Part shown: piece by piece, positions 14,723-50,448 of the stretch
Position numbering within the stretch: position 1 is the first letter of the stretch
How the letters are laid out: each line of letters opens with the position of its first letter
NCBI RefSeq assembly: GCF_022014595.1
Contig: NZ_CP091740.1
Coordinates: 3,708,200-3,772,199, forward strand
DNA: 64,000 bases
From: Solitalea lacus
GTDB taxonomy: Bacteria; Bacteroidota; Bacteroidia; Sphingobacteriales; Sphingobacteriaceae
Direction: 5' to 3'
The notes under the pieces: model-generated
The model's database searches: none
Seen by the model: only the letters and a program-made list of their open reading frames with translations
Told to the model about the DNA's origin: nothing
Position numbers and translations under genes: made by a program

Positions 14723-14859
14723 GTTATGGAAATTTCATCAAGTCATATTTTTTCACCACAATATCTCTTTTGTTTTGTCGATGGGTGTCGTCTTAGGTTA
14801 TTTGTCTTGGTTAGACACTTCACCTCCCATTGCGGAAATACTTTGTTAGCGATTCATCG

Positions 14860-15432
14860 TTATTGTCCGTCCACTGTGTAATTCAGTTCAGTTACCCCGC
14901 AAGTAAATTGCCGAGTAGTCAATAGATTTAATTTTATTTTGTCTTTGATGTCTACAAACAATGGAATGCCTCGTCCAAGAATAATTGGATTAACAAATAG
15001 CCAGTAGCCGTCAATTAAGTTCTGTTGAATAAGTGAATGTGTTGCTGTCGGGCTACCAAAAAGTAAGACGTCTTTACCTGCTTGTTGTTTTATTTCATTT
15101 ATTCTGTCGGAAAGGTTGTCGCTAATAATTTTTGTGTTAGTCAGACCCGCATCTTTCATTGTTTTTGATAAAACAACTTTGTGAACTTTATTATACCACT
15201 TTGAATGTTCAATGTCGTGCTTGGTCGCTGTAGGCTTGTCCCCTGCACTTGGCCAGTAATTTTCCATCATCTGATAAGTTACTCGACCATATAATGCAGT
15301 GTCACCTTCGCTTATCCGTTTACCGACATAATCAAACAGTTCTTCATCAACTTTAATCCAGTCCATTTCTCCGTTCGGTCCAGCTACAAAACCGTCAAGT
15401 GATATGTGCATAAATGAAATTATTTTTCTCAT
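14860..15432 (-). CDS. RibD C-terminal / dihydrofolate reductase-like family protein
   Basis: 190 residues with the start MRKIISFMHISLDGFVAGP, characteristic of the YwjB/YyaP-type DHFR-like family, then TALYGRVTYQMMENYW, and VLLFGSPTATHSLIQ plus the C-terminal NPIILGRGIPLF strand. These proteins have the NADPH-binding fold of RibD reductase and DHFR, but most have no proven substrate. It is a single gene; a CGCTAAC motif follows its stop codon, as in the attC-like elements of the next genes. Probably a cassette-type accessory gene (inference). Confidence 0.88.
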   Translation of the reverse strand: MRKIISFMHISLDGFVAGPNGEMDWIKVDEELFDYVGKRISEGDTALYGRVTYQMMENYWPSAGDKPTATKHDIEHSKWYNKVHKVVLSKTMKDAGLTNTKIISDNLSDRINEIKQQAGKDVLLFGSPTATHSLIQQNLIDGYWLFVNPIILGRGIPLFVDIKDKIKLNLLTTRQFTCGVTELNYTVDGQ

Positions 15433-15463
15433 AGGGTTCTATTTTTTATGGTTGTCTATGGTT

Positions 15464-15584
15464 TGTTACAACTTGCCGAAGGCGCAATGAAAACACCTGC
15501 GTTTTAGTCCGCCGTACGTAATTAATTAGTTGTAAGAACAACGTCACACGTCGCCCGCAGTGACGGCAAGCCTGTCTTAGCGGC
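15464..15584 (-). repeat. attC-like imperfect dyad after the NYN gene
   Basis: Read on the minus strand, it begins 7 bases after the stop with CCGCTAAGACAGG and ends with CTTCGGCAAGTTGTAACA. The arms CTTGCCG and CGGCAAG pair exactly, with GC-rich sequence and GGGCGACGTG between. It shares GGCGACGTG, an AATTAAT block and AAAACGCAGG with the element after the DUF6624 gene. Position after the stop, polarity and imperfect palindrome are as in integron attC sites. Confidence 0.5.
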
Positions 15585-15586
15585 AA

Positions 15587-16327
15587 TTATCTTTGTTTTA
15601 AGTATATGTGTCTAATATTATTTAATCCAGAATCTCTTTCATCAATGTCAAACTTATTGATATCTTTTATTAAAGGCAGTAATTTTGGAAATCCATAATT
15701 TCTTGGATCGAAGTCAGGTTTCTTTTTAAGAATGTAGTTTCCTAAACTTCCCAAAAATGCCCAACCTGTTTCGTCCGCCAAATCATTGACACTTTCTGTT
15801 ATAATTCTAATCGTTTCGGCATCTACTTTACTAATTGGCTCTTCCTTTTTGGTTTTTGTAGTCACCTTAGTAATACTTGCTGTTTCTGTACTTGCTGTCT
15901 TTAGGATTTCTATGTAGATAAATTTATCGCAAGCAGAAATGAAAGGCTGTGGTGTCTTCTTTTCTCCAAAACCAATTACTGTCATTCCTGCTTCTCTAAG
16001 TCTTGTAGCTAATCTAGTAAAATCACTATCACTTGAAACAATACAAAAACCATTTACTTTCCCAGAATAAAGAATGTCCATAGCATCAATTATCATTGCA
16101 CTGTCACTAGAATTCTTTCCTGTTGTATAGCTGTATTGTTGAATAGGAGTGATAGCATTTTCCAGAAGAACATTTTTCCAGCCAGCAACAGTCGGCTTGG
16201 TCCAATCAGCATAAATTCGCTTGATTGTTGGAGTTCCATTTTTAGCAATTTCTTCAAGCATTTCTTTTACAGTTGAATAAGGAACGTTGTCTGCATCAAT
16301 TAATACTGCTAATTTATCTTCTGTCAT
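15587..16327 (-). CDS. NYN-domain RNase-like protein with C-terminal OST-HTH/LOTUS domain
   Basis: 246 residues. The N-terminal NYN (LabA/DUF88-type PIN-like) domain spans about 1-150 and shows the acidic metal-binding residues in LIDADNVPY, NSSDSAMIIDAMD and IVSSDSDFTRLA. A Thr/Lys-rich linker follows, then a LOTUS/OST-HTH domain (about 165-245) with WAFLGSLGNYILKKKPDFD, RNYGFPKL and a terminal basic tail. The family is predicted to cleave RNA, with the LOTUS module binding RNA. It is common in accessory regions of many bacteria. A dyad-symmetric element follows its stop codon. Function in this host is unknown. Confidence 0.9.
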   Translation of the reverse strand: MTEDKLAVLIDADNVPYSTVKEMLEEIAKNGTPTIKRIYADWTKPTVAGWKNVLLENAITPIQQYSYTTGKNSSDSAMIIDAMDILYSGKVNGFCIVSSDSDFTRLATRLREAGMTVIGFGEKKTPQPFISACDKFIYIEILKTASTETASITKVTTKTKKEEPISKVDAETIRIITESVNDLADETGWAFLGSLGNYILKKKPDFDPRNYGFPKLLPLIKDINKFDIDERDSGLNNIRHIYLKQR

Positions 16328-16347
16328 TTTGATGATGGTTATTTTTA

Positions 16348-16430
16348 CGCTAACGTTTCATGGCTTGCCGAGCGGCGCGAAGAAAATCGCTCGTCGCCAG
16401 CGCGGTTTCTTGGGCCTAGATTTGTTAAGT
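16348..16430 (-). repeat. attC-like imperfect dyad overlapping the stop of the 194-residue hypothetical
   Basis: On the minus strand it starts with ACTTAAC, which overlaps the stop codon and fits the R'' consensus RYYYAAC. It contains GGCGACGAGCGA and TCGCGCCGCTCGG arms, and ends with AAACGTTAGCGT. The arms pair imperfectly and are far more GC-rich than the flanking genes. An attC-type recombination site is the best explanation I can offer. Confidence 0.5.
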
Positions 16431-17009
16431 TAGTAAATTTTTTAATTTTAAATTATTCAGCAATTCTTCAAATTCGTCATTTGTTACTGCCCCAATTTCT
16501 TGTAGCCATTTGTAATTATGTATTTGTGTTTCCTCGTTTAACGTTGGGTCTATAAGAGCATATTTTGTCTTGTAATAGCTTTTAATAGCCGTCTGTAAAG
16601 AGTTAATAAAATTATCTACAGTTTCCCTGTCGGGATTCGATCCATTTAATTGAAGAACTATTGCCCCTCCTTGAATAAACACCTTGTCTGTCTTTTGGAA
16701 AAATGAATAAACGGCACCTGTCCCAAACATTAGCGCTCCGAAAATCCAAAAAAGTAATTGAGGAAATCGAACGCCTTTTTGATATTCGTCAAAAAGCACA
16801 TAAGTTGCCAGGACTGTTAGGCCTATATAAAAAGGAATTAGAATTAAAATGCTTCTGGTCTGTCTACGGGATAAATCTAACCCTAGATTGTCAAGTTTAA
16901 TATAGAATTCTTCATATTTATTAATGTTCTTTGTCGTTACAACAATTCTGTCTTTTAAGATTTTGTAATGTTTATAGGAACCAAGTGATTTTTGTAATAG
17001 TTCGTCCAT
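16425..17009 (-). CDS. Membrane protein of unknown function
   Basis: 194 residues, no family recognised. It has a hydrophilic N-terminal region (about 1-50), two membrane helices (about 53-73 and 82-103), then a soluble C-terminal part that ends with a short amphipathic segment (WLQEIGAVTNDEFEELLNNL) resembling SHOCT-type oligomerisation motifs. It lies 31 bases downstream of another small membrane protein gene on the same strand and the two may be co-transcribed. The composition is ordinary for the genome. An attC-like dyad starts at its stop codon. Confidence 0.7.
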   Translation of the reverse strand: MDELLQKSLGSYKHYKILKDRIVVTTKNINKYEEFYIKLDNLGLDLSRRQTRSILILIPFYIGLTVLATYVLFDEYQKGVRFPQLLFWIFGALMFGTGAVYSFFQKTDKVFIQGGAIVLQLNGSNPDRETVDNFINSLQTAIKSYYKTKYALIDPTLNEETQIHNYKWLQEIGAVTNDEFEELLNNLKLKNLLT

Positions 17010-17040
17010 TTGAAGTGTTTTTTAATAGGCCCGAGGGTAT

Positions 17041-17577
17041 TTATCTCCGATTACTTAAATTTATAGCTCTTTCTATTCGTGGCCGATTATATCGTTGAAG
17101 GAAAATTGGATAAAGGTTTAGTAAGACATTTAATATCAGTAACCACAAAGATTTGAGAACTCCAAATTTGAATGCCACGAAAACATTAAATCCTAGTACT
17201 ATAAGCAAGATAATTAAGTGACCTAGTTCAGATTTTTTTGTTTGATAATGTAAATTCATCAAAGCTTTGGTGTTTTTTTCTATTGGATTAGATTTTTTAT
17301 TCAGTCTTTCCCAACCAGTCCAAACCAACAATTTTCTGAAAAAATTTATGCCAAGATATTCGTATATTTTTCCTCTCCGTTCCCACCCCTTTCCATTATA
17401 GTAAGAAGAAGTAAACTGGCTTTTTAGCGTTTCAGTAAAACCAAACACGAATGCCATCAACAGGAAGTTCAGAGCCCACGCGAACGAAAAACCATCCATT
17501 CCAATATAATGAACCAGAGCACTAATTGAGATAATTGTAATTATTGCAATTGAAATTAAAATTAAGTTTTTTTTCAT
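17041..17577 (-). CDS. Small multi-pass membrane protein of unknown function
   Basis: 178 residues, no family recognised. Two hydrophobic helices at the N-terminus (about 5-25 and 30-50) are followed by a charged, aromatic loop (YNGKGWERRGKIYEYLGINF) and two further helices near the C-terminus (about 118-160). It ends with a basic tail. The gene precedes the 194-residue membrane protein with a 31-base gap and probably forms a two-gene unit with it. Upstream lies the attC-like element at 17606-17740. Role unknown. Confidence 0.7.
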   Translation of the reverse strand: MKKNLILISIAIITIISISALVHYIGMDGFSFAWALNFLLMAFVFGFTETLKSQFTSSYYNGKGWERRGKIYEYLGINFFRKLLVWTGWERLNKKSNPIEKNTKALMNLHYQTKKSELGHLIILLIVLGFNVFVAFKFGVLKSLWLLILNVLLNLYPIFLQRYNRPRIERAINLSNRR

Positions 17578-17605
17578 TGATTACTTTTCGTTTAGGATTC
17601 TAAGA

Positions 17606-17740
17606 TGTTGTACAACGGGCGGCACTTGCCCATGAAAATCATCCTGCGTTTTTATCGACCGTTGTCTTAAAGTTATTAATTGGTTTGTGATTTCCAAGTT
17701 GCACGTCGCCCGTGCTCAAGGGTGTGTTATAAGCCGTGCT
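17606..17740 (-). repeat. attC-like imperfect dyad after the DUF6624 gene
   Basis: On the minus strand it runs from GCACGGCTTATAACACACCC to GCCGCCCGTTGTACAACATC. CGGGCG occurs in the left arm and its complement CGCCCG in the right arm. It shares GGGCGACGTG, AATTAAT and AAAACGCAGG with the element at 15464-15584, so the two are copies of one repeat family. The right end GTTGTACAAC resembles that of the GNAT-gene element (GTTGTGCACAAC). Confidence 0.5.
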
Positions 17741-17758
17741 GATAATTATATCCTTGAA

Positions 17759-18101
17759 TTATTTGCCGATTTTAATAGGTTCTAAGCCCAACTTCTTTCG
17801 CCTTTCATTTACATGTTCTTCGTCATGGATTGGAAAGAGTTTTTGCTTCTGGGTGGATGTATCATAAAATGACTTTGTTCCATATAATTGTTTTTCCCCA
17901 TTTGCAATTAATACCCTGTCTTTCAAAGTCACGTAATACATCATTGGAATTGTCTTTTTCATTGCTTCAGCTTCAAAAAGAGGGAGATATCTTTCTCTGT
18001 ACTCCATATCAGCATGCCATGTTATTAAATATGCAGCCATAGCTTCCTCTTCTCCGTATTCTTCTTGTGTTGGCAATCCTATCTTAGCTATTATTTTGGC
18101 A
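17759..18101 (-). pseudogene. DUF6624 lipoprotein gene, 3' fragment (split by IS66)
   Basis: The frame encodes the conserved C-terminal part of DUF6624: KIGLPTQEEYG, WHADMEYRERYLPLFEA, an invariant-looking KDRVLIANGEKQLYGTKS segment and a terminal NERRKKLGLEPI. A GTG at 18109 gives an apparent 116-residue gene, but bases beyond 18101 belong to the IS66 left end. The missing N-terminal half is at 20383-20755. Removing the element and one 8-bp target copy restores one 235-codon frame. DUF6624 function is unknown. Confidence 0.88.
18094..18101. repeat. Left 8-bp target site duplication of IS66
   Basis: TTTTGGCA directly before the left terminal inverted repeat, identical to 20383-20390. Eight-base duplications are typical of IS66. 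Confidence 0.92.
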
Positions 18102-18127
18102 GTAAGCACCCGACCAACCCCATCTTT
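18102..18127 (+). repeat. IS66 left terminal inverted repeat
   Basis: Begins GTAAGCACCCGACC. It pairs with the right repeat at 21 of 26 positions. The 58 bases from here to the tnpA start codon recur almost unchanged at 22526-22584. Confidence 0.92.
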
Positions 18128-18159
18128 ACAGTTTCCTCCTGGTATCTTTTCTTTGTTGG

Positions 18160-18435
18160 ATGAAAAAAATAGAGCAAATGCGCCTAGCCGTGCAGCAATG
18201 GAAAGAAAGCGGGTTAACCCAGCAAGCTTATTGTGAAATGATCGGGGTAAAGCGAACTACGTTTGCCAACTGGGTGGCACGATGTAAAGCAAGGACTGAA
18301 ACAGGTTTTATTGCCATCACTCCCCCAACTGAAGCGGTCTCAGCAACCCTTGAGATCATCTATCCTAATGGCGTACGGCTTAACGCAAGTTCCGCTCCTG
18401 TGCATCTCCTTGCTGAACTGATCCGCCTCTACTGA
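18160..18435 (+). CDS. tnpA: IS66 accessory protein TnpA (helix-turn-helix)
   Basis: 91 residues with an N-terminal helix-turn-helix of the IS66 OrfA type (QWKESGLTQQAYCEMIGV then TFANWVARCK) and a short C-terminal domain (EIIYPNGVRLNAS). It is the first of the three IS66 genes and is thought to be a DNA-binding accessory factor needed for transposition. Its stop codon overlaps the tnpB start (TGATG), indicating translational coupling. Confidence 0.92.
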   Translation: MKKIEQMRLAVQQWKESGLTQQAYCEMIGVKRTTFANWVARCKARTETGFIAITPPTEAVSATLEIIYPNGVRLNASSAPVHLLAELIRLY

Positions 18436-18764
18436 TGTTTAGCCTGAACTCTTCTCATCGGTATTTGCTGTACCAGGGACACTGCGATATGCGCAAATCA
18501 TTCGACGGCTTGTGTGGCTTGGTTGCTTCGGAGCTCAAGGGGAATGCTACCAGTGGGGACGTCTTCGTCTTTCTAAACCGGCAGCGCACCCATATCAAGC
18601 TGCTGCATTGGGAACACGGAGGCTTTGTGTTGTACTATAAGCGCCTGGAAGAGGGGACCTTCCCGGCATCGTCCAAAGGGCAGCTGAGCTGGGCGGATCT
18701 GGTGCTGATGATCGAAGGGGTCGAGGTGCAAAAGAGTCGACAGTTACGCCGCTACCAAGTATAA
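18435..18764 (+). CDS. tnpB: IS66 Orf2-family accessory protein TnpB
   Basis: 109 residues with the family signature: YLYQGHCDMRKSFDGLCGL at the N-terminus, DVFVFLNRQRTHIKLLHWE in the middle and a C-terminal FPASSKGQLSWADLVLMIEG. Its length is normal for IS66 TnpB. The protein is required for IS66 transposition in studied elements, but its biochemical role is not established. It starts inside the tnpA stop codon and ends 51 bases before tnpC. Confidence 0.95.
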   Translation: MFSLNSSHRYLLYQGHCDMRKSFDGLCGLVASELKGNATSGDVFVFLNRQRTHIKLLHWEHGGFVLYYKRLEEGTFPASSKGQLSWADLVLMIEGVEVQKSRQLRRYQV

Positions 18765-18815
18765 AAAAGTGCCTTTTTATTTGCCTAAACGCGGTTTTTT
18801 GCTTATTTTCACGTC

Positions 18816-20357
18816 ATGGATATGGCACTGGAAAACCTCTCAAAAGAGAACCTGATTGCTCTTTTGAAGGAGAAAGATACCTCCATTGAAAGGAGAGATG
18901 CCGCCATTGAATCCTACCAAAAAATCAACTCTTCCCTTCAGGAAGAGGTCGACTACCTTAAACAGCAGGTTGAGCTTTTCAAGCGAATGCAATTCGGTCA
19001 GAAGCGTGAACGCTTCGAAGGCGATCCCGCACAAGGTGTGTTGCCATTTGAAGCTCCGGCAGAAGAAGTGGCCCTTCAGGAAGAAACCATCAAAGAACAG
19101 ATTACCTATACCCGTAAAAGACAGTCTGCCCATAAAGGCCGCGCCGCCCTTCCGGCTCATTTACCGGTAGAGGAAGTGGAGATCTATCCCCAGGGTGATC
19201 TGTCGGAAATGGTATGCATCGGCAAAGAAGTTACTGAAGAGCTGGAGTGTGAACCTGCCCGGTTCTTCATCCGCCGTTATATCCGCTATAAATATGCTGC
19301 CAAAAGCGGTGAAGGGGTCACCACCGGAGAGCTTCCCGAACGAGTAATCGACAAGGGCATTCCGGGCGCAGGCCTGCTGGCCATGATCCTGACCGATAAA
19401 TATGTGGATCACTTGCCGCTGTACCGACAAAAGCAGCGGTTTGCCCGGGAAAACATCCCCATTGCCTCCTCTACGCTCGAAGGCTGGGTCAAACAAGGGC
19501 TGGAACGACTCGAACCGCTCTTTGAGCAACTCAAGTTCGACATCAAAGCCAAGGGTTATTTGCAGGTCGATGAAACGACCATCAAGGTGCTAGAAAGTGA
19601 TAAGAAAGGAGCTTGTCACCTGGGCTGGTATTGGGTGTATCATGCTCCACTGGACGGACTGGTCCTGATGGACTATCAGCCTACTCGCGGTGCAGTAGCT
19701 ACCAAAGAAATGCTGGCGCACTTTAAGGGGTATCTCCAAAGTGATGGCTACGGCGTATACGAAAAAATAGGCCAGCGGCCCGAGGTCATCCCGGTAGCCT
19801 GCTGGGCGCATGCCCGAAGGGAATTTGAACGGGCACTGGAAAACGATAAGGTCAGGGCCGCTAAAGCACTCGAGTTGATCCAGCAGCTCTACGCGGTGGA
19901 GCGCAAAGCTAAAGAAGCACAGCTGCCGGCCGATCAACGCAAGCAATTACGTCTGGATGAAGCACTTCCGGTACTCAACGAGCTCGGTAAATGGATCTTC
20001 GCCGAGGTAAAAAACACCTTGCCCAAAAGCCAGATTGGAAAGGCGATGCGCTATGCCATGGCACGATGGGATAAGCTCAGCGTGTATCTCCAGGATGGCA
20101 GCCTGCAGATCGACAATAATGCCATCGAGAATGCCATACGCCCCATCGCTTTGGGACGCAAAAACTTTTTGTTTGCAGGAACGCATGAGGCTGCTGCGCG
20201 GGCGGGGATGATCTATTCGTTCTTTGCCATCTGCAAGAAAAATGAGGTCAATCCTTTCGGGTGGTTAAAATACGCACTGGAAAACATCATGACCATCAAC
20301 CACAAGAATATCCGGGACCTCTATCCCCAGAACTTTAAGAAATTAACTGAACTTTAA
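18816..20357 (+). CDS. tnpC: IS66-family DDE transposase TnpC
   Basis: 513 residues: an N-terminal leucine-rich coiled coil (about 1-60), a central helical region, and the DDE transposase core. Visible motifs are LQVDETTIKVLE (first Asp), LQSDGYGVYEK (second Asp), the CWAHARREFE segment and the IDNNAIENAIRPIALGRKN region with the catalytic Glu. The IS66 C-terminal element (NPFGWLKYALENI) is complete. The stop codon touches the right inverted repeat. The gene appears intact, so the element could be active. Confidence 0.95.
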   Translation: MDMALENLSKENLIALLKEKDTSIERRDAAIESYQKINSSLQEEVDYLKQQVELFKRMQFGQKRERFEGDPAQGVLPFEAPAEEVALQEETIKEQITYTRKRQSAHKGRAALPAHLPVEEVEIYPQGDLSEMVCIGKEVTEELECEPARFFIRRYIRYKYAAKSGEGVTTGELPERVIDKGIPGAGLLAMILTDKYVDHLPLYRQKQRFARENIPIASSTLEGWVKQGLERLEPLFEQLKFDIKAKGYLQVDETTIKVLESDKKGACHLGWYWVYHAPLDGLVLMDYQPTRGAVATKEMLAHFKGYLQSDGYGVYEKIGQRPEVIPVACWAHARREFERALENDKVRAAKALELIQQLYAVERKAKEAQLPADQRKQLRLDEALPVLNELGKWIFAEVKNTLPKSQIGKAMRYAMARWDKLSVYLQDGSLQIDNNAIENAIRPIALGRKNFLFAGTHEAAARAGMIYSFFAICKKNEVNPFGWLKYALENIMTINHKNIRDLYPQNFKKLTEL

Positions 20358-20382
20358 AAGACGGGGTTCGTCGGGCGGATAC
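20357..20382 (-). repeat. IS66 right terminal inverted repeat
   Basis: Its complement begins GTATCCGCCCGACGAACCCC and matches the left repeat at 21 of 26 bases. It starts at the last base of the tnpC stop codon. Confidence 0.92.
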
Positions 20383-20390
20383 TTTTGGCA
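20383..20390. repeat. Right 8-bp target site duplication of IS66
   Basis: TTTTGGCA, identical to 18094-18101, directly after the right inverted repeat. Confidence 0.92.
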
Positions 20391-20755
20391 AGAACAATTT
20401 GATTTATCCTATCAGTAAAACCGATATATTTCCGAAAATAAGAGTCGGAACTTTTATGCCAATTCTTGTTTAGAGACATCAGGCTATCTCTATACATCTG
20501 GTCATTCCTATAGAGATCTTGAAGGAGTTTTTTTATATCACTTTTTGAGTAATTGCTGATATCCATATTCGGCTTAACAATACTGATGGCTGAATCGATC
20601 ATATCAGTCTTAGTTTGGACAGTGTTAAAATATGGAAATAGTGAAACTGATTCTTTACTTGCTTGAGTGTTACTATTACTCGCATTCTTGGTTTGTCCTT
20701 TTGAACATGAGTTAAGAAACAATAATGCTGCTAATAATGAGATTTTATATGTCAT
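20383..20755 (-). pseudogene. DUF6624 lipoprotein gene, 5' fragment (split by IS66)
   Basis: Encodes a lipoprotein signal (LLAALLFLNSCSKG, lipidated Cys at residue 17), a Ser/Asn-rich linker and the N-terminal DUF6624 helices (KLLQDLYRNDQMYRDSLM). The native frame runs to residue 124 (NQIVLAK), where IS66 begins; the frame then reads nine IS-encoded residues (SIRPTNPVF) to a stop at 20354. Joined to 17759-18101 it would give a 235-residue lipoprotein of normal family length, so the insertion caused the break. The truncated product might still be made, but would lack the conserved C-terminal half. Confidence 0.9.
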
Positions 20756-20783
20756 AAAAATTTAGTTTCCTGACTTGGGTTTG

Positions 20784-21593
20784 TTAGTTGTCCAGATCAG
20801 CCATGGATTTGTCACAAAAGGGAGCAGGGTGAACTAAGGCATCGATGCCGGCATCAATCGCTTCCCGCCAGGTGGAAGCGCCCATATGACCGATTACTTT
20901 CTTTTTGTACTTGTGTGCTTCCTCAATAATTGCTTTTAAGATTTGTGGCGGAACTGTTGCATATATTTTTATGAAATCCACCTTTGCATTCACCTGGCGC
21001 CTTACCTCAGCACGGGCTTCCTCCGGAGTATTGACAAGTACTGACATTGTCTTAAATTCAGGGGTAGAAGATTCTATGAGTGGCCCACAGGTAAAAATTC
21101 TGGGACCGATCAATCTGTCTGAATCAATAATCTTTTTTAATAAAAGGCCTTCTTCCAGGAAATCTCCTGTTTCTCTTACCGAGGTAATCCCGTAATAAAG
21201 CAAACTCCGCACACCCCATTCTGAAGCCTGTTGGTTATATTCCACAGAAGCCTGAGGTACCCCATCTGTCACTTTTATTGTCCGGTAGCTCATGGTAAGA
21301 TGTCCATGCATATCATAAAGGCCGGGAATAACGAATTTATCATGCGCATCGATTAAAGTAGTAAAATGGTAATTATTTTTCTCACTGGTGTCTTTTATTG
21401 CTTCGATCCTGCCGTCATTTATAAGTATGAGTTTGTTCGTTTGAGGCGTGTCACCATTTCCATCAATGAGCGTACCTGCAACAATTCCCATATCATACCT
21501 TGAACAAGCGGCAACAAACAACAGTATAGGTGTAAAAGAAATAAAAAGTAGGAATTTATGTTTTAGCATGTGGGCAAGTCTAATCAATTTCAT
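20784..21593 (-). pseudogene. Amidohydrolase-family lipoprotein, C-terminally truncated
   Basis: 269 residues. A lipoprotein-type signal (LLFVAACS) precedes an amidohydrolase domain with the metal-binding DMHGH, a likely carbamylated Lys in VDFIKIYAT, and the next His ligands in KVIGHMG and ALVHPAPF. The family normally runs to about 430-450 residues and needs a further Asp near the end; here the frame stops just after ALVHPAPF. No remnant of the C-terminal half follows: the DUF6624 gene starts 28 bases later. The junction TAACAAACC resembles the right end of the attC-like site at 15464. Probably inactive. Confidence 0.75.
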
Positions 21594-21625
21594 ATTTATT
21601 AGTCTTGGTTATGAGTGTTATCAGG

Positions 21626-21764
21626 ATGTTGTGCACAACGGTTTTCGGCTTGACGATGTGGCGTTTTTTTTGAACAAAAATTCAATAGAACTCCTAATGT
21701 TGAACCTTGCATAAATATTTCACAGAAGCACTTCAGCCGCCATATTTCCAAACCGATGTTAGCG
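21626..21764 (-). repeat. attC-like imperfect dyad after the GNAT gene
   Basis: On the minus strand it begins CGCTAACATCGG, overlapping the stop codon of the GNAT gene, and ends CCGTTGTGCACAACATCC. The arms share CGGTTT and GGCTTGA in inverted orientation, with extra unpaired bases in one arm, a pattern seen in attC sites. The same CGCTAAC motif follows the stop of the DHFR-like gene. Confidence 0.5.
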
Positions 21765-22307
21765 GTTCGACTTTTTTGTTTCCCAATATTCTTTTTTTAA
21801 TTTAAACCAATCTGTCAAGTCTCCCTCATAGTCAAACGTCTCTTGAAAGTCAAAACCTAATTTAGTTAGGACTTTTTTTGAGTTCGCATTTTTGGGGTCA
21901 GTTATTGCAAATATTGAATCAACATTCAAGTTTTTAAATCCATAATCTAAAATTGCAATTGAAGATTCTGTCGCAAAGCCTTTCCCCCAATGCTTTTTCT
22001 TAAACCGATAACCAAGCTCATAAAAATTAATGTGATTGTTTAGAGGCTCTCTAAAATATTTTAATCCTGACCAACCCACACATTCGTTTGTTACTTTGTC
22101 AACTACTGCCCAACGAGCAATTCCATTTTCCACGTATTGCTTTTTAAGCATTTCAATCACTTTTTTTATTTCGTCAATTGATTTTACAGGATTGTTTTCA
22201 ATATACAAATGCACTTCTGGGTCAGAGTCCATTTCGAATAAGTCATTTTCGTCTGTATATTCTAACTCTCTTAAAATTAGGCGTTCTGTTTCAATAATTG
22301 TTTTCAT
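21759..22307 (-). CDS. GNAT-family N-acetyltransferase (RimJ/RimL type)
   Basis: 182 residues with the RimJ/RimL-like start (TERLILRELEYTDENDLFEM), a central NFYELGYRFKKKHWGKGFATES segment that forms the acetyl-CoA pyrophosphate-binding loop (Gly-Lys-Gly-Phe-Ala-Thr), and the final IFAITDPKNANSKKVLTKLGF motif. It is predicted to transfer acetyl groups from acetyl-CoA to an N-terminus or small molecule; the substrate is unknown. It is a single gene in the leftward array with the attC-like element at its stop. No signal peptide. Confidence 0.92.
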   Translation of the reverse strand: MKTIIETERLILRELEYTDENDLFEMDSDPEVHLYIENNPVKSIDEIKKVIEMLKKQYVENGIARWAVVDKVTNECVGWSGLKYFREPLNNHINFYELGYRFKKKHWGKGFATESSIAILDYGFKNLNVDSIFAITDPKNANSKKVLTKLGFDFQETFDYEGDLTDWFKLKKEYWETKKSNR

Positions 22308-22525
22308 TCAGTCTATGGTGAGATTCTTTTAAACTTCTGACTAACATACAAAAAAGCTGCTTTTAAAAGGCATTAAAACCCAGCGCCTGATTAGTCAGAC
22401 CGAATTTATCGATTTGTTTCCGGATCCGTTTGACCAAACCCAGTTTTCATTTCTGATCCAAGAACAAGTATCCTTCAGGGTTAATGTAGGTTGCACCAAG
22501 CAGGTTCCAAATAATTACCGCTAAT

Positions 22526-22584
22526 TCCAACAAAGAAAAGATACCACGAGGAAACTGTAAAGATGGGGTTGGTCGGGTGCTTAC
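22526..22584 (-). mobile_element. Solo IS66 left end (59-bp relic)
   Basis: Matches the complement of 18102-18160 at 58 of 59 positions. It covers exactly the untranslated end of the intact IS66, from the terminal GTAAGCACCC to the base where tnpA starts, and nothing further inside. The outer end faces 22585. Either a deletion left only the end, or it is a minimal non-coding derivative. Confidence 0.88.
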
Positions 22585-22644
22585 GGACAAGCCGGTAAAC
22601 AGCCTGCTGAAAAGATGCCCCTGCTGTAAAAGGGGCAATTTGGT

Positions 22645-22681
22645 TACCATCGCCGTTTTCTACCGGCGTGGCCCGCCGGAA
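22645..22681 (-). repeat. 37-bp GC-rich repeat, copy A (downstream of doc)
   Basis: Same sequence and orientation as 23434-23470 with one mismatch. It contains CCGGCG-TGGCC-CGCCGG, a 6-bp perfect stem. The copies lie either side of the Doc toxin-antitoxin pair. Confidence 0.75.
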
Positions 22682-22793
22682 TGGTACATAGGCACGGGCC
22701 AAAATTTGCTTTCCTATAAAAACTAATCTTTACGGGTAAGGGTACTTATGCCCCTGTGCGAACGAAAACGGCCTTTTTTACCCGAAAAACATA

Positions 22794-23180
22794 TTATAGC
22801 TCGTTTTTCTGTTTCAGTCTTGCAGTTAGCCAATGTTTTATGTGATCAAATCTGAATTCTCCCTTACTTGCAGCAATGACCATATCGTATTTTTCCTCTT
22901 GAGTTGCGACGATGTCCATGCCATTTTCAAGTAGGATAAGTCGCATTAAAACGTAAGCAGTTCGTTTATTTCCGTCAATAAAAGGATGATTAATGACTGT
23001 ACTTTCCAAAATGGCTGCAGCTTTATCAACCACTGTTGGATATAGATCCTGTTTGTCAAACGTTGTAAATGGTCTGGAAATAGCAGCTTGTAAAGCTCCT
23101 AAATCTCGAATGCCTTTACTGCCTCCAAACTTGTCAATGAGAATATTGTGAATGTTTTCAACGTCTTTCAGGTCAATCAT
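22794..23180 (-). CDS. doc: Doc-type (Fic fold) toxin of a toxin-antitoxin pair
   Basis: 128 residues, the normal size for death-on-curing toxins. The Fic motif HPFIDGNKR is at 65-73 and is complete, with the helix before it (DKAAAILESTVIN). Doc phosphorylates elongation factor Tu, while other Fic enzymes add AMP; the short length favours the Doc type. The ATG overlaps the antitoxin stop (ATGA), so the pair is translationally coupled with the antitoxin first. Copies of a 37-bp GC-rich repeat lie on both sides of the pair. Confidence 0.92.
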   Translation of the reverse strand: MIDLKDVENIHNILIDKFGGSKGIRDLGALQAAISRPFTTFDKQDLYPTVVDKAAAILESTVINHPFIDGNKRTAYVLMRLILLENGMDIVATQEEKYDMVIAASKGEFRFDHIKHWLTARLKQKNEL

Positions 23181-23365
23181 TGAGCAAGTTTTTCAAGCAA
23201 TTCTTTATCTTCTGAAAGGATTTGTCGGAGGTTGTTTGTCAATTTGATTTTGTCGGTCGATTGACCTTGAAGTTCTTTAAGAAAATCAAGAATGTCCTGC
23301 AATACATTTTCAGGAACGTTGTCTAGCACTTTTTGAATTTCAGTTTTTATTTGTGTCTTGGTCAT
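23177..23365 (-). CDS. Antitoxin partner of Doc
   Basis: 62 residues (MTKTQIKTEIQKVLDNVPEN...), starting at the internal ATG at 23365; a longer frame upstream reads through repeat sequence and is not plausible. The sequence is acidic and helical, with a segment (VLQDILDFLKELQ) like the DUF2281-type antitoxins found with Doc and PIN toxins. It lies directly before doc and overlaps it by four bases. It should neutralise Doc and may autoregulate the operon, although no clear DNA-binding domain is visible. Confidence 0.82.
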   Translation of the reverse strand: MTKTQIKTEIQKVLDNVPENVLQDILDFLKELQGQSTDKIKLTNNLRQILSEDKELLEKLAQ

Positions 23366-23433
23366 AATCAAATTTAAGAAAAAGTAACAATTTTGCACGT
23401 CAAAAAATGAGCCATAACGTTTCGGGCTTTGGT

Positions 23434-23470
23434 GACCATCGCCGTTTTCGACCGGCGTGGCCCGCCGGAA
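23434..23470 (-). repeat. 37-bp GC-rich repeat, copy B (upstream of antitoxin)
   Basis: Direct copy of 22645-22681 with one mismatch, including the CCGGCG/CGCCGG stem. On the minus strand it is followed by CCCGAAACGTTATGG, which resembles the GAAACGTTAGCG end of the element at 16348. It lies between the YdeI-like gene and the toxin-antitoxin pair. Confidence 0.75.
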
Positions 23471-23577
23471 ATAAAAATATCCAACTTGTCCAACGGACTT
23501 AAATTTTTGAAATAGTTCATCGGCATAAAGTAGTTGAGTAATATGAGAATTGGAACTACAGAAACCATTCCCATTGC

Positions 23578-24099
23578 TCACTTTTCTCGGCTTTGTTTAA
23601 ACTCTGGTTTTGGTCTGCCTACAAAACTTGCTTCACCTAATAAAAATTTGATGGCTTTAGCAACGTTCTTATCAATACTCTGTTCTGTTTTTAAAAAAGA
23701 AATGTATTTTATTATCTCACTTCTGAGAGAAGGACGTAATTGATTAAATACCTCATTTGCATCAGGATTCTCTTCTAATACTTTGAGCAACTTTGGATGT
23801 GGAAGAATCGACCTGTCTTCTTCATCAATTTCTAAACTTATAGTCAACAGTTCCCCAATTCTTTTTGGTGAGTTTTCTAACATGTTGGTGTTTACATACA
23901 ACCGCCATTCACCGGAATACTTAACCAGGGTTTGCTTATAGTTTTTGCCATTAAGAGTTCCTTTTATGGGAATTTTCCCTTTGTATTTTTTAGATAATGT
24001 TAATACCGATTCTAAAACAGTTTCAGGTAAAAACACAAATGGGTTAATCCCAATTATTTCAAGTTTAGCAGAAAAGGTATGCTTTTCACCAGGTGTCAT
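23578..24099 (-). CDS. DUF1905 / YdeI-like bacteriocin-protection family protein
   Basis: 173 residues. The N-terminal DUF1905 beta-barrel (about 5-95) shows FSAKLEIIG, IPIKGTLNGKNYKQTLVK and WRLYVNTNML. The C-terminal YdeI/OmpD-associated helical region (about 110-170) shows LRPSLRSEIIKYISFLKTE, AKAIKFLLGEASF and a basic end. The family has been linked to protection from antimicrobial peptides in some bacteria, but the mechanism is unknown. It is a small soluble protein without a signal peptide, in line with the other single-gene units here. Confidence 0.85.
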   Translation of the reverse strand: MTPGEKHTFSAKLEIIGINPFVFLPETVLESVLTLSKKYKGKIPIKGTLNGKNYKQTLVKYSGEWRLYVNTNMLENSPKRIGELLTISLEIDEEDRSILPHPKLLKVLEENPDANEVFNQLRPSLRSEIIKYISFLKTEQSIDKNVAKAIKFLLGEASFVGRPKPEFKQSREK

Positions 24100-24137
24100 T
24101 TTATTTAATATAGTTTTGGTTCAGCAGCTCAAAACAA

Positions 24138-24922: not shown

Positions 24923-26200
24923 TTAATTTACGCGTTGCTTGGCCAAGTAAAAATCGTAACTATAAACATTATAAGGAAGCAGTTTTTGGGCAAAGAAACG
25001 AGCAATGATACAAGCGGTCATAATTGGAAAAAACAAATCGTAACCATTAGGCAATAATTCACATACCAATACCAATGACATGCAAGGTGCGTATAGTGAA
25101 CCCGAAAGGGTTGCCCCCATACCTACCAAAGCAAAATTTAGGGGGATCAAATCAGTACCTAAAAACTTATTACATAAAAGCGAAAACAATAACCCTAAAA
25201 ACGCACCGGCAACAATACTTGGAGCGAACACTCCGCCATCCCCCCCGGCGCCCAAGGTTAACGATGAGGCCAATGGCTTTAATAGCACAATACCTAATAA
25301 AAACAGTAATGAAATATTTTGAGAATGTTCTAGATCATTCAATGATTCATTTAAACCATGATAACTATCACCAAATAAAGCCGGATAAAACAAAATCATT
25401 ACTCCAACGCTAATGGCTCCTAAATTTACTCGTATAAAATTATTGGAGATCTTGGCAAACAGCCCCTTCAATTTGGTTACCAAAACAGTAAAATACACAG
25501 ATAGTAACCCACCTAACAAACTCAATAGAATGAAATACGGCACCGCCTGCCAATGCCACCCATTAACTTTATAATGTAATAAGGGCTCATTGTCAAATTT
25601 CAGAATGAATCCCCAGGCAATTAGTGCTGCCACCGAACAACTAAGTAGTACCGTTTTTTTTGCTTTTTTAGCAATAACTTCAATTGCAAACAACCAACCC
25701 GCCAACGGACTAGAGAATAAGACGGCAACGCCTGCCGTAATGCCTGCGCACATTATCTCACGTTTATATCTTCGCGCCGAAATTCTTCTGGAGTAAATTG
25801 TATTACCTGTTGTTGCCGTAGCCACAACTGTAGACACTTCAATACCTGTCGATCCTCCGAAAATAACAGTCAAAAAACCGTTAAGGTAATGGGCCGGTAT
25901 CCTGAACAACGGCAAATGTTCTTTTCGTTGGTCAATTGTATGATAAATTTCAGTAATGCCTTTACTTTTTCGATTTTGAAAAATGTATTTTCTTAAAAAG
26001 TAAATGGCTGTAATTCCGATGGTTGGAAAAAAGATAAACGCAAGGGGGGCAAAAGAAAAAACGCTTTTAAAAATAGCATGCTCCATAAACTCTGTAAGGT
26101 GCTTTAAGGAAAAAGCCAACAAAATACTCGATATGGTAACTAAAACCGATGAAACGATAAGTTTAATGTAGTTAAGGGTAATTACTCTATTTCTTTTCAC
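24923..26200 (-). CDS. CLC-family chloride channel or transporter
   Basis: 425 residues, ten or more membrane helices, no C-terminal CBS domains. The anion-selectivity loops are visible as GSTGIEVS (116-123, the position of the family GREGP motif with the gating Glu as Glu 121) and GGDGGVFAPS (about 317). The family moves chloride, often in exchange for protons. The start codon is GTG. It stands alone, with an AT-rich 100-base gap to the accessory region and a 283-base divergent spacer to murI. Confidence 0.92.
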   Translation of the reverse strand: MKRNRVITLNYIKLIVSSVLVTISSILLAFSLKHLTEFMEHAIFKSVFSFAPLAFIFFPTIGITAIYFLRKYIFQNRKSKGITEIYHTIDQRKEHLPLFRIPAHYLNGFLTVIFGGSTGIEVSTVVATATTGNTIYSRRISARRYKREIMCAGITAGVAVLFSSPLAGWLFAIEVIAKKAKKTVLLSCSVAALIAWGFILKFDNEPLLHYKVNGWHWQAVPYFILLSLLGGLLSVYFTVLVTKLKGLFAKISNNFIRVNLGAISVGVMILFYPALFGDSYHGLNESLNDLEHSQNISLLFLLGIVLLKPLASSLTLGAGGDGGVFAPSIVAGAFLGLLFSLLCNKFLGTDLIPLNFALVGMGATLSGSLYAPCMSLVLVCELLPNGYDLFFPIMTACIIARFFAQKLLPYNVYSYDFYLAKQRVN

Positions 26201-26483
26201 TAGTACTTCTTTATATTATTATTTCCGAGGGCAAAAATAATGTTATTTTATTTTTTACTTGCTTTGGCGTTTTCGCGACACCATTTGGGTAGTTAAATTT
26301 AATCGTTCACTTCCACAATTATGTGTTTTCAAATAGTAAAAGCCATTGTTTTAAGGACAATTATTCTCTTGTAAAACAGATTTTATACTTAGACAAACAG
26401 CCTCAAACTGTTAATAAGAATTTTAATTGAAAGGACTGTATAAATTCAGTTTTTTTCACACTTTTGAACTTCAATCAGTATAC

Positions 26484-27308
26484 ATGCAACAGGGACCTAT
26501 TGGAGTTTTTGATTCAGGCTACGGAGGATTAACAGTGTTAAAAGAGGTTGTTCGTCAACTACCTGATTATGACTATCTGTACCTGGGGGATAATGCCCGC
26601 GCTCCTTATGGAACGAGATCATTTGAAACAGTTTACCACTACACTTTAGAATGTGTTAATTACTTATTCAGCCAGGGTTGTTCTTTAATAATTTTAGCTT
26701 GTAATACGGCTTCTGCCAAAGCACTACGCAGTATTCAACAGAATGATTTACCTAAAATGACAGGTAATAAACGAGTTTTAGGGGTGATAAGACCAACAGC
26801 AGAAATTGTTGGAAACATGACTCGGTCAAAGCAAATAGGCATTTTGGGAACTGCCGGCACAGTTGCTTCAGGTTCCTATCCAATTGAGATTCAAAAATAT
26901 TTCCCCCAAGTCGGAGTTCACCAGGAAGCCTGTCCAATGTGGGTGCCATTGGTTGAAAATGATGAATATGATAGTCCTGGAGCTGACTATTTTGTTAAGC
27001 AGCATCTTGAAAGACTACTTAACAAGTCCTCAGAAATTGATACAATTGTTCTTGGGTGTACTCATTACCCATTGCTTGCGGGAAAGATTTTAAAGTATCT
27101 TTCTCCAGATATTAAATTACTTTCACAAGGTGAAATAGTGGCCCACAGTCTATCTGATTACCTAAATCGCCATCCCGAAATTGAAGCCTTGTGTAGCAGA
27201 CATGGCCAAAGACATTTCTTAACCACTGATTCTATTGAGGTGTTTGAAAAGCATGCAAGCCGTTTTTTTGGTAAGCCTGTAAGGGCCGAACATATAGACC
27301 TAGTGTAA
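26484..27308 (+). CDS. murI: Glutamate racemase
   Basis: 274 residues from the ATG at 26484; a TTG at 26427 would add 19 residues with no family match. It makes D-glutamate for peptidoglycan. The start GPIGVFDSGYGGLTVL, catalytic Cys 73 in LACNTASA and Cys 192 in LGCTHYPLL, with the preceding Asp-Ser pair, are all present. It is the only cell-wall precursor gene in this neighbourhood and is followed by its own terminator. Confidence 0.96.
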   Translation: MQQGPIGVFDSGYGGLTVLKEVVRQLPDYDYLYLGDNARAPYGTRSFETVYHYTLECVNYLFSQGCSLIILACNTASAKALRSIQQNDLPKMTGNKRVLGVIRPTAEIVGNMTRSKQIGILGTAGTVASGSYPIEIQKYFPQVGVHQEACPMWVPLVENDEYDSPGADYFVKQHLERLLNKSSEIDTIVLGCTHYPLLAGKILKYLSPDIKLLSQGEIVAHSLSDYLNRHPEIEALCSRHGQRHFLTTDSIEVFEKHASRFFGKPVRAEHIDLV

Positions 27309-50317: not shown

Positions 50318-50448
50318 CTAACGGGTGAGTGTTGCCGAAGTGGGGGATTTATAGCACAAAACCATAAAAAGCACTCACGTTGAACAACTGTAGAATATTC
50401 ATTAAATGCACGTTCGCTTCCCCATTTTGGCCACATTATGTTACTGGC
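50318..50448 (-). repeat. attC-like imperfect dyad downstream of the RloB gene
   Basis: On the minus strand the left arm TAACATAATGTGGCC...TGGGG and the right arm CCCCACTTCGGCAACACTC plus ACCCGTTAGCA are complementary with a few extra bases on one side. It lies 42 bases after the rloB stop. The shape (imperfect stem with extrahelical bases, TAAC at one end, GTTAGC at the other) is that of attC sites and resembles the elements at 16348 and 21626. A 69-codon frame across it is fortuitous. Confidence 0.5.

Follow-up and report, generated by a model that had tools for sequence, protein, structure and literature searches.

We analyzed a 64,000-nucleotide stretch (hereafter the window) of the Solitalea lacus genome, positions 3,708,200 to 3,772,199 of the single 4.40-Mb contig NZ_CP091740.1, in which an initial annotation had described small genes with attC-like ends as a candidate integron cassette array. 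This array is very probably a decayed, integrase-less part, of the CALIN (cluster of attC sites lacking integrases) type, of an integron-like system in Bacteroidota that relies on a HARP-tyrosine recombinase. The system is integron-like in logic, yet it falls outside the present definition of integrons, since the recombinase, when tested, lacked the IntI-specific domain. The annotated divergent Bacteroidota-type cassette array without a local integrase was supported by covariation, by box complementarity in intact relatives, by boundaries at G|TT and by the small same-strand genes. The integron interpretation was right in kind, but the part in the window is decayed and interrupted by an insertion sequence (IS), and the candidate integrase is a HARP-domain tyrosine recombinase, not IntI.

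The sites in the window were analyzed with a covariance model, R1, which was built from 30 Solitalea sites (from sister species, plus two sites about 80 kb away in the same genome) and contained none from the window. The model confirmed the dyads reported after the NYN, DUF6624 and GNAT genes and placed them in one family of attC-like sites of about 115-125 nt, all on the minus strand, at 15458-15578 (E 1.1e-12), 17614-17728 (E 5.5e-10) and 21637-21760 (E 4.1e-4), respectively. Relatives of the NYN and DUF6624 sites were present elsewhere in the same genome. These two sites are 2 kb apart, and an IS66 element lies in the 3.9 kb between the second and the third; the three significant sites therefore give the CALIN arrangement of at least two attC sites within 4 kb with no integrase nearby. 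No tyrosine recombinase was found in the 64-kb window, as had been noted, but a candidate integrase heads a related array about 80 kb away in the same genome. The dyad in which a 194-residue open reading frame (ORF) was said to end appears to be such a site that has lost its central part (read from the sequence at approximately 16345-16435, minus strand), and it resembles the intact S. longa site L097:540-663, but it is below the R1 threshold. Likewise, the CGCTAAC observed after the DHFR-like gene begins the left half of an attC-like site (14810-14851, minus strand, read from the sequence), but there is no right half and the model misses it. The attC site suspected at 50.2-50.5 kb yielded a match at 50320-50442 on the minus strand, a possible lone site, but a marginal one (E 0.14).

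The S. lacus genome was compared with those of S. longa HR-AV, S. agri MAHUQ-68 and a fourth Solitalea species. At E ≤ 0.01 the site model matched 16 times in S. lacus, 36 times in S. longa and 27 times in S. agri, and there was one marginal match in the fourth species. Contigs 20 and 21 of S. longa carry textbook arrays, with a site every 400-900 nt and the genes forward. A tyrosine recombinase of 536-541 residues lies directly ahead of an array in each of the three array-bearing genomes, and no match of this HARP-type kind was found in the fourth species.

In an integron cassette, the 5' box of attC complements the 5' end of that same cassette, since the circle joins both. The same logic was found here: the 10-nt box at the 3' end of a cassette is reverse-complementary to the 5' box (G|TT) of that cassette and not to that of its neighbour. 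With the Solitalea sites located by their core only, the match to the own cassette over seven variable positions had a mean of 5.57 and was perfect in 18 of 28 cases; the same-site match was 3.33, and permuted pairing gave 3.56 and never exceeded 4.39 in 20,000 shuffles. In the Solitalea site alignment, 92.6% of the structure cells pair and the compensatory cells exceed those of every shuffle; these counts were made on a hand-written structure, as RNAalifold found almost nothing on this alignment.

Exact 10/10 pairs, sites defined by their core and sites delimited by boxes took the place of a generic stem-plus-box detector and of matching at 9/10, both of which were too noisy. Downstream of 31 recombinases the chains of box pairs had a mean of 3.6, in comparison with 1.2 after shuffling and 1.1 upstream. 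Of 34 further loci, which were hand-picked from a class-wide ranked list for their downstream sequence and are not strictly random, 14 had an exact pair starting no more than 200 nt from the recombinase stop, where 0.7 would be expected (p about 3e-15). The attI-like first box lies 33-153 nt past the recombinase stop. Sites bounded solely by exact pairs (72 sites in 29 loci) had a modal length of 122-127 nt, and their inner stems had a mean of 6.4, versus 4.1 when permuted. The longest ORF was forward in 62 of 64 cassettes, and the median cassette size was 645 bp. The relatives thus have L''/L' arms together with a box that complements the 5' end of its own cassette, an attI with insertion at G|TT, and mostly one-gene cassettes in the same orientation, as canonical integrons do.

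The cassette boundaries were also investigated. Two species of one genus (G135 and G168) carry the same first cassette behind different integrases, which fall in different tree branches; 100 of 100 nt were identical after the GTT and 35 of 100 before it, and at the far end of the cassette 46 of 50 positions matched before the next GTT and 32 of 100 after it. Between two Chryseobacterium plasmids with the same integrase type, the attI region was identical at 93 of 100 positions up to the GTT and at 28 of 100 after it, and for the attI region of S. longa and S. agri the values were 78 before the GTT and 37 after it. Read from sequence comparison, these patterns are the traces that would be expected of insertion at G|TT. 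The HARP-type integrase and attI region of the two Chryseobacterium (L261 and L262; NZ_CP041688.1 and NZ_CP094530.1) are plasmid-borne, and one of the two integrases is annotated 'site-specific tyrosine recombinase/integron integrase'.

The catalytic residues are conserved in the HARP-type recombinase. Its match to the integron-integrase family covers profile positions 5-178 and 240-315, and the gap at 178-240 shows that the IntI-specific insertion is absent. The spacing from the catalytic lysine motif to HxLRH was 64-70 residues, versus 106 in IntI_A of the same genome. Integron integrases are recognised by this IntI-specific domain (PMC9668308), and the new recombinase lacks it. In the tree, IntI (100/99) and the Xer proteins of the genus (100/98) formed separate clades with the new type outside both, and the unity of the new type itself was weakly supported (57/70). 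In a structure search of the Solitalea recombinase the top Foldseek match was IntI4 (2a3v), and XerA structures (PDB 5hxy, 4a8e) were among the top matches. The array lies 3' of the recombinase on the same strand, and not divergently from it as in the canonical layout.

The N-terminal part of the recombinase consists of a HARP-like unit of about 60 residues, present in one copy in relatives of 345-400 residues and in three copies in the Solitalea recombinases. With a profile of this domain, the HARP domain of SMARCAL1 (PDB 4o66) came first among solved structures (E 4.2e-5), and Pfam HARP (PF07443) gave weak single-sequence matches in 7 of 20 members (best E 0.004). AlphaFold predicted a beta-beta-alpha-beta-beta-alpha order for it. 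The HARP assignment comes from the sequence profile only; in Foldseek and VIA searches with the two whole models, tyrosine recombinases filled the lists. HARP domains fused to other SNF2 proteins confer annealing-helicase activity (PMC4035279), and the HARP-like domain may help to bind or fold attC.

Relatives of the recombinase at E ≤ 1e-70 were found in 148 of 295 sampled genomes of the class Bacteroidia, and most of the matches span the HARP-like part. Among the named carriers are Flavisolibacter ginsengisoli, Lacibacter luteus, Ferruginibacter metagenome-assembled genomes (MAGs) and a Bacteroidales MAG. A contig of a Candidatus Alkanophagales archaeon MAG (L127) also has a relative, which aligns to query residues 10-539, possibly by contamination.

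The distribution of canonical IntI bears on the explanation that IntI moves the cassettes, with the two intI genes of S. lacus acting in trans and the HARP recombinase a bystander. A genome search for IntI, as the initial annotation had suggested, did find two true genes, on the minus strand at L017:10255-11211 (C1:2095.3k; 346 bits) and on the plus strand at L020:9550-10503 (C1:2766.6k; 301 bits). Both pass the IntI cut-off, and the cassettes follow integron logic. However, both are orphans that do not track with the arrays: no cassette array was seen beside either on reading, and no gene passes the cut-off in any of the three sister species, among them those whose arrays are richest. Canonical IntI exceeded the cut-off in 58 of 198 genomes of the phylum, of which only S. 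lacus and one other (G096) belong to the same class, whereas the arrays follow the HARP recombinase. We therefore rejected canonical IntI as the driver, a very improbable role for it. A second explanation is that another mobile element, IS110-type or IS91-like with an Xer-like recombinase, moves the genes and that the sites are its targets or ends. Such elements with a tyrosine recombinase do occur inside the S. lacus arrays, and one IS110-type element is located inside a site, but the clean arrays of S. longa, Flavisolibacter and the Flavobacterium type directly follow the recombinase, no IS lies at those cassette boundaries that were read, and the attI-like boundary stands at the array head in several families, which makes this explanation very improbable. 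It is hardly credible that the repeats are terminator-like or REP-like (repetitive extragenic palindromic) hairpins separating ordinary genes on one strand and that no site-specific recombination is involved: GC-rich hairpins often follow stop codons, and recombination was not observed, but the box pairing follows the cassette and not the hairpin, homologous cassettes begin and end exactly at GTT within unrelated flanks, and sites delimited solely by their boxes are constant in length.

Several points weigh against a HARP-recombinase-driven system and against the place of the window in it. Recombination itself was not observed in this analysis. The R''/R' boxes of the window sites pair poorly and the sites are degenerate; the membership of the window therefore rests on the site model. 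The 34 further loci were the selected set described above, and an exact first pair was not seen at 20 of them. Two relatives without the HARP-like domain (L192 and L193) still have exact own-complementary box pairs downstream, and given these the domain may be dispensable or secondarily lost.

The sites, box pairing, boundaries, linkage and distribution are read from the sequences, and we infer recombination, strand cleavage, circular intermediates and single-strand folding. The proposed system would consist of a tyrosine recombinase with at least one N-terminal HARP-like domain and without the IntI insertion, an attI-like site after the integrase stop codon, and a downstream same-strand array of small cassettes, each ending in an attC-like hairpin of about 122-127 nt. 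The cassette would exist as a circle, in which attC would fold single-stranded, its 10-nt R'' box pairing with its own R' box (GTTNNNNNNN) in addition to the L''/L' arms. The recombinase would join the cassette to attI or to another attC by cutting at the G|TT of the R' box, so that an inserted cassette would have matching boxes at both ends. The HARP-like domains would bind or anneal the attC hairpin.

The window locus carries minus-strand genes over 14.8-22.3 kb: a RibD_C or DHFR-like gene (14860-15432; Pfam RibD_C, E 3e-22) and an NYN/OST-HTH gene (15587-16327; Pfam NYN, E 3e-40), both probable cassette genes; the 194-residue ORF (16425-17009), without a match in the Pfam search; a CrtO-like membrane protein gene (17041-17577; Pfam CrtO, E 5e-29); a DUF6624 gene (17759-18109), whose Pfam match starts at profile position 50 and whose 5' part is cut off by the IS66 element; and a GNAT acetyltransferase gene (21759-22307; Pfam Acetyltransf_3, E 5e-32), also a probable cassette gene. 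The genes had been described as all pointing left, which is contradicted by the IS66-type insertion that splits the array on the plus strand at 18102-20382 (three ORFs, 18160-20357); this element has five other near-identical copies in the same genome. The Doc toxin-antitoxin pair had been counted as part of the array, but the stretch from 21760 to the ClC gene at 24923 yielded no attC-like site, and the status of the pair as a cassette was not supported. Among the other arrays compared, the cassette genes of the window had no close relatives, only weak RibD_C matches. The flanking ClC gene has no orthologue in the sister species, and therefore no empty-site comparison is available for this locus. 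murI lies near a cassette array both in the window (26451-27282) and in S. agri (L104:3658-4490), the S. agri array being on its other side.

A remnant of an IS110-type element (22330-22521, minus strand; 80% identity to the IS110-type end at L054:1238-1436) abuts GTTAGTC ahead of the GNAT cassette. IS110-type elements were seen inside or at the end of attC-like sites here and at L054:5208-6839, a placement resembling that of IS1111-attC elements, which target attC in other bacteria. IS91-like transposases, paired with an Xer-like tyrosine recombinase, adjoin or lie inside arrays on the chromosome (L053:18385-19997, L054:6983-8932) and on a Chryseobacterium plasmid (L262:10969-12911).

In comparison with known systems, chromosomal integrons such as the Vibrio superintegrons share with the new type a tyrosine recombinase, an attI-like insertion point, arrays of small same-strand cassettes, folded sites of the R''/L''/L'/R' design, complementarity of boxes within a cassette and the G|TT junction. 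They differ in that the new recombinase has HARP-like N-terminal domains, lacks the IntI-specific insertion and is outside the IntI clade, that its array lies 3' of it on the same strand, and that its boxes pair over about 10 nt in sites almost all of about 123 nt. The window array resembles a CALIN in having sites but no nearby integrase, yet its sites are of the HARP-recombinase type and the genome holds the distant candidate integrase. Archaeal and bacterial Xer recombinases (XerA; PDB 5hxy, 4a8e) share the catalytic fold and the spacing without the IntI insertion, but have no HARP-like domain or cassette array. The SMARCAL1 HARP domain shares the profile match and the predicted secondary-structure order, but it is fused to an SNF2 ATPase, whereas the domain predicted here is fused to a tyrosine recombinase. 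The pdif/Xer modules, in which 28-bp dif-like XerC/XerD sites flank genes, differ in design from the folded sites of about 123 nt.

The system appears to be a type of integron that is widespread in Bacteroidota and has so far gone unrecognised; its recombinase is unlike that of known integrons, and standard tools should therefore miss it. Integron surveys key on the extra domain of IntI, and one such survey reports almost no Bacteroidetes integrons. The IntegronFinder 2.0 paper reports that only In0 elements were known there before, plus one complete integron in Salinibacter (PMC9024848). We found no published description of the HARP-type system in the open literature, preprints and most subscription papers being outside the search. 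We tentatively propose, with slightly less than even confidence, that Bacteroidota evolved, apart from IntI, a structure-specific cassette recombinase whose HARP-type annealing domains recognise or load the folded single-strand attC, a second integron lineage in perhaps half of Bacteroidia. If the system is as proposed, a large pool of mobile cassettes, partly behind plasmid-borne integrases as in Chryseobacterium, would have been overlooked in a major phylum, and it would offer a direct test of how a tyrosine recombinase comes to act on folded single-strand sites when it lacks the IntI insertion, and of whether the HARP domains are what enables this.

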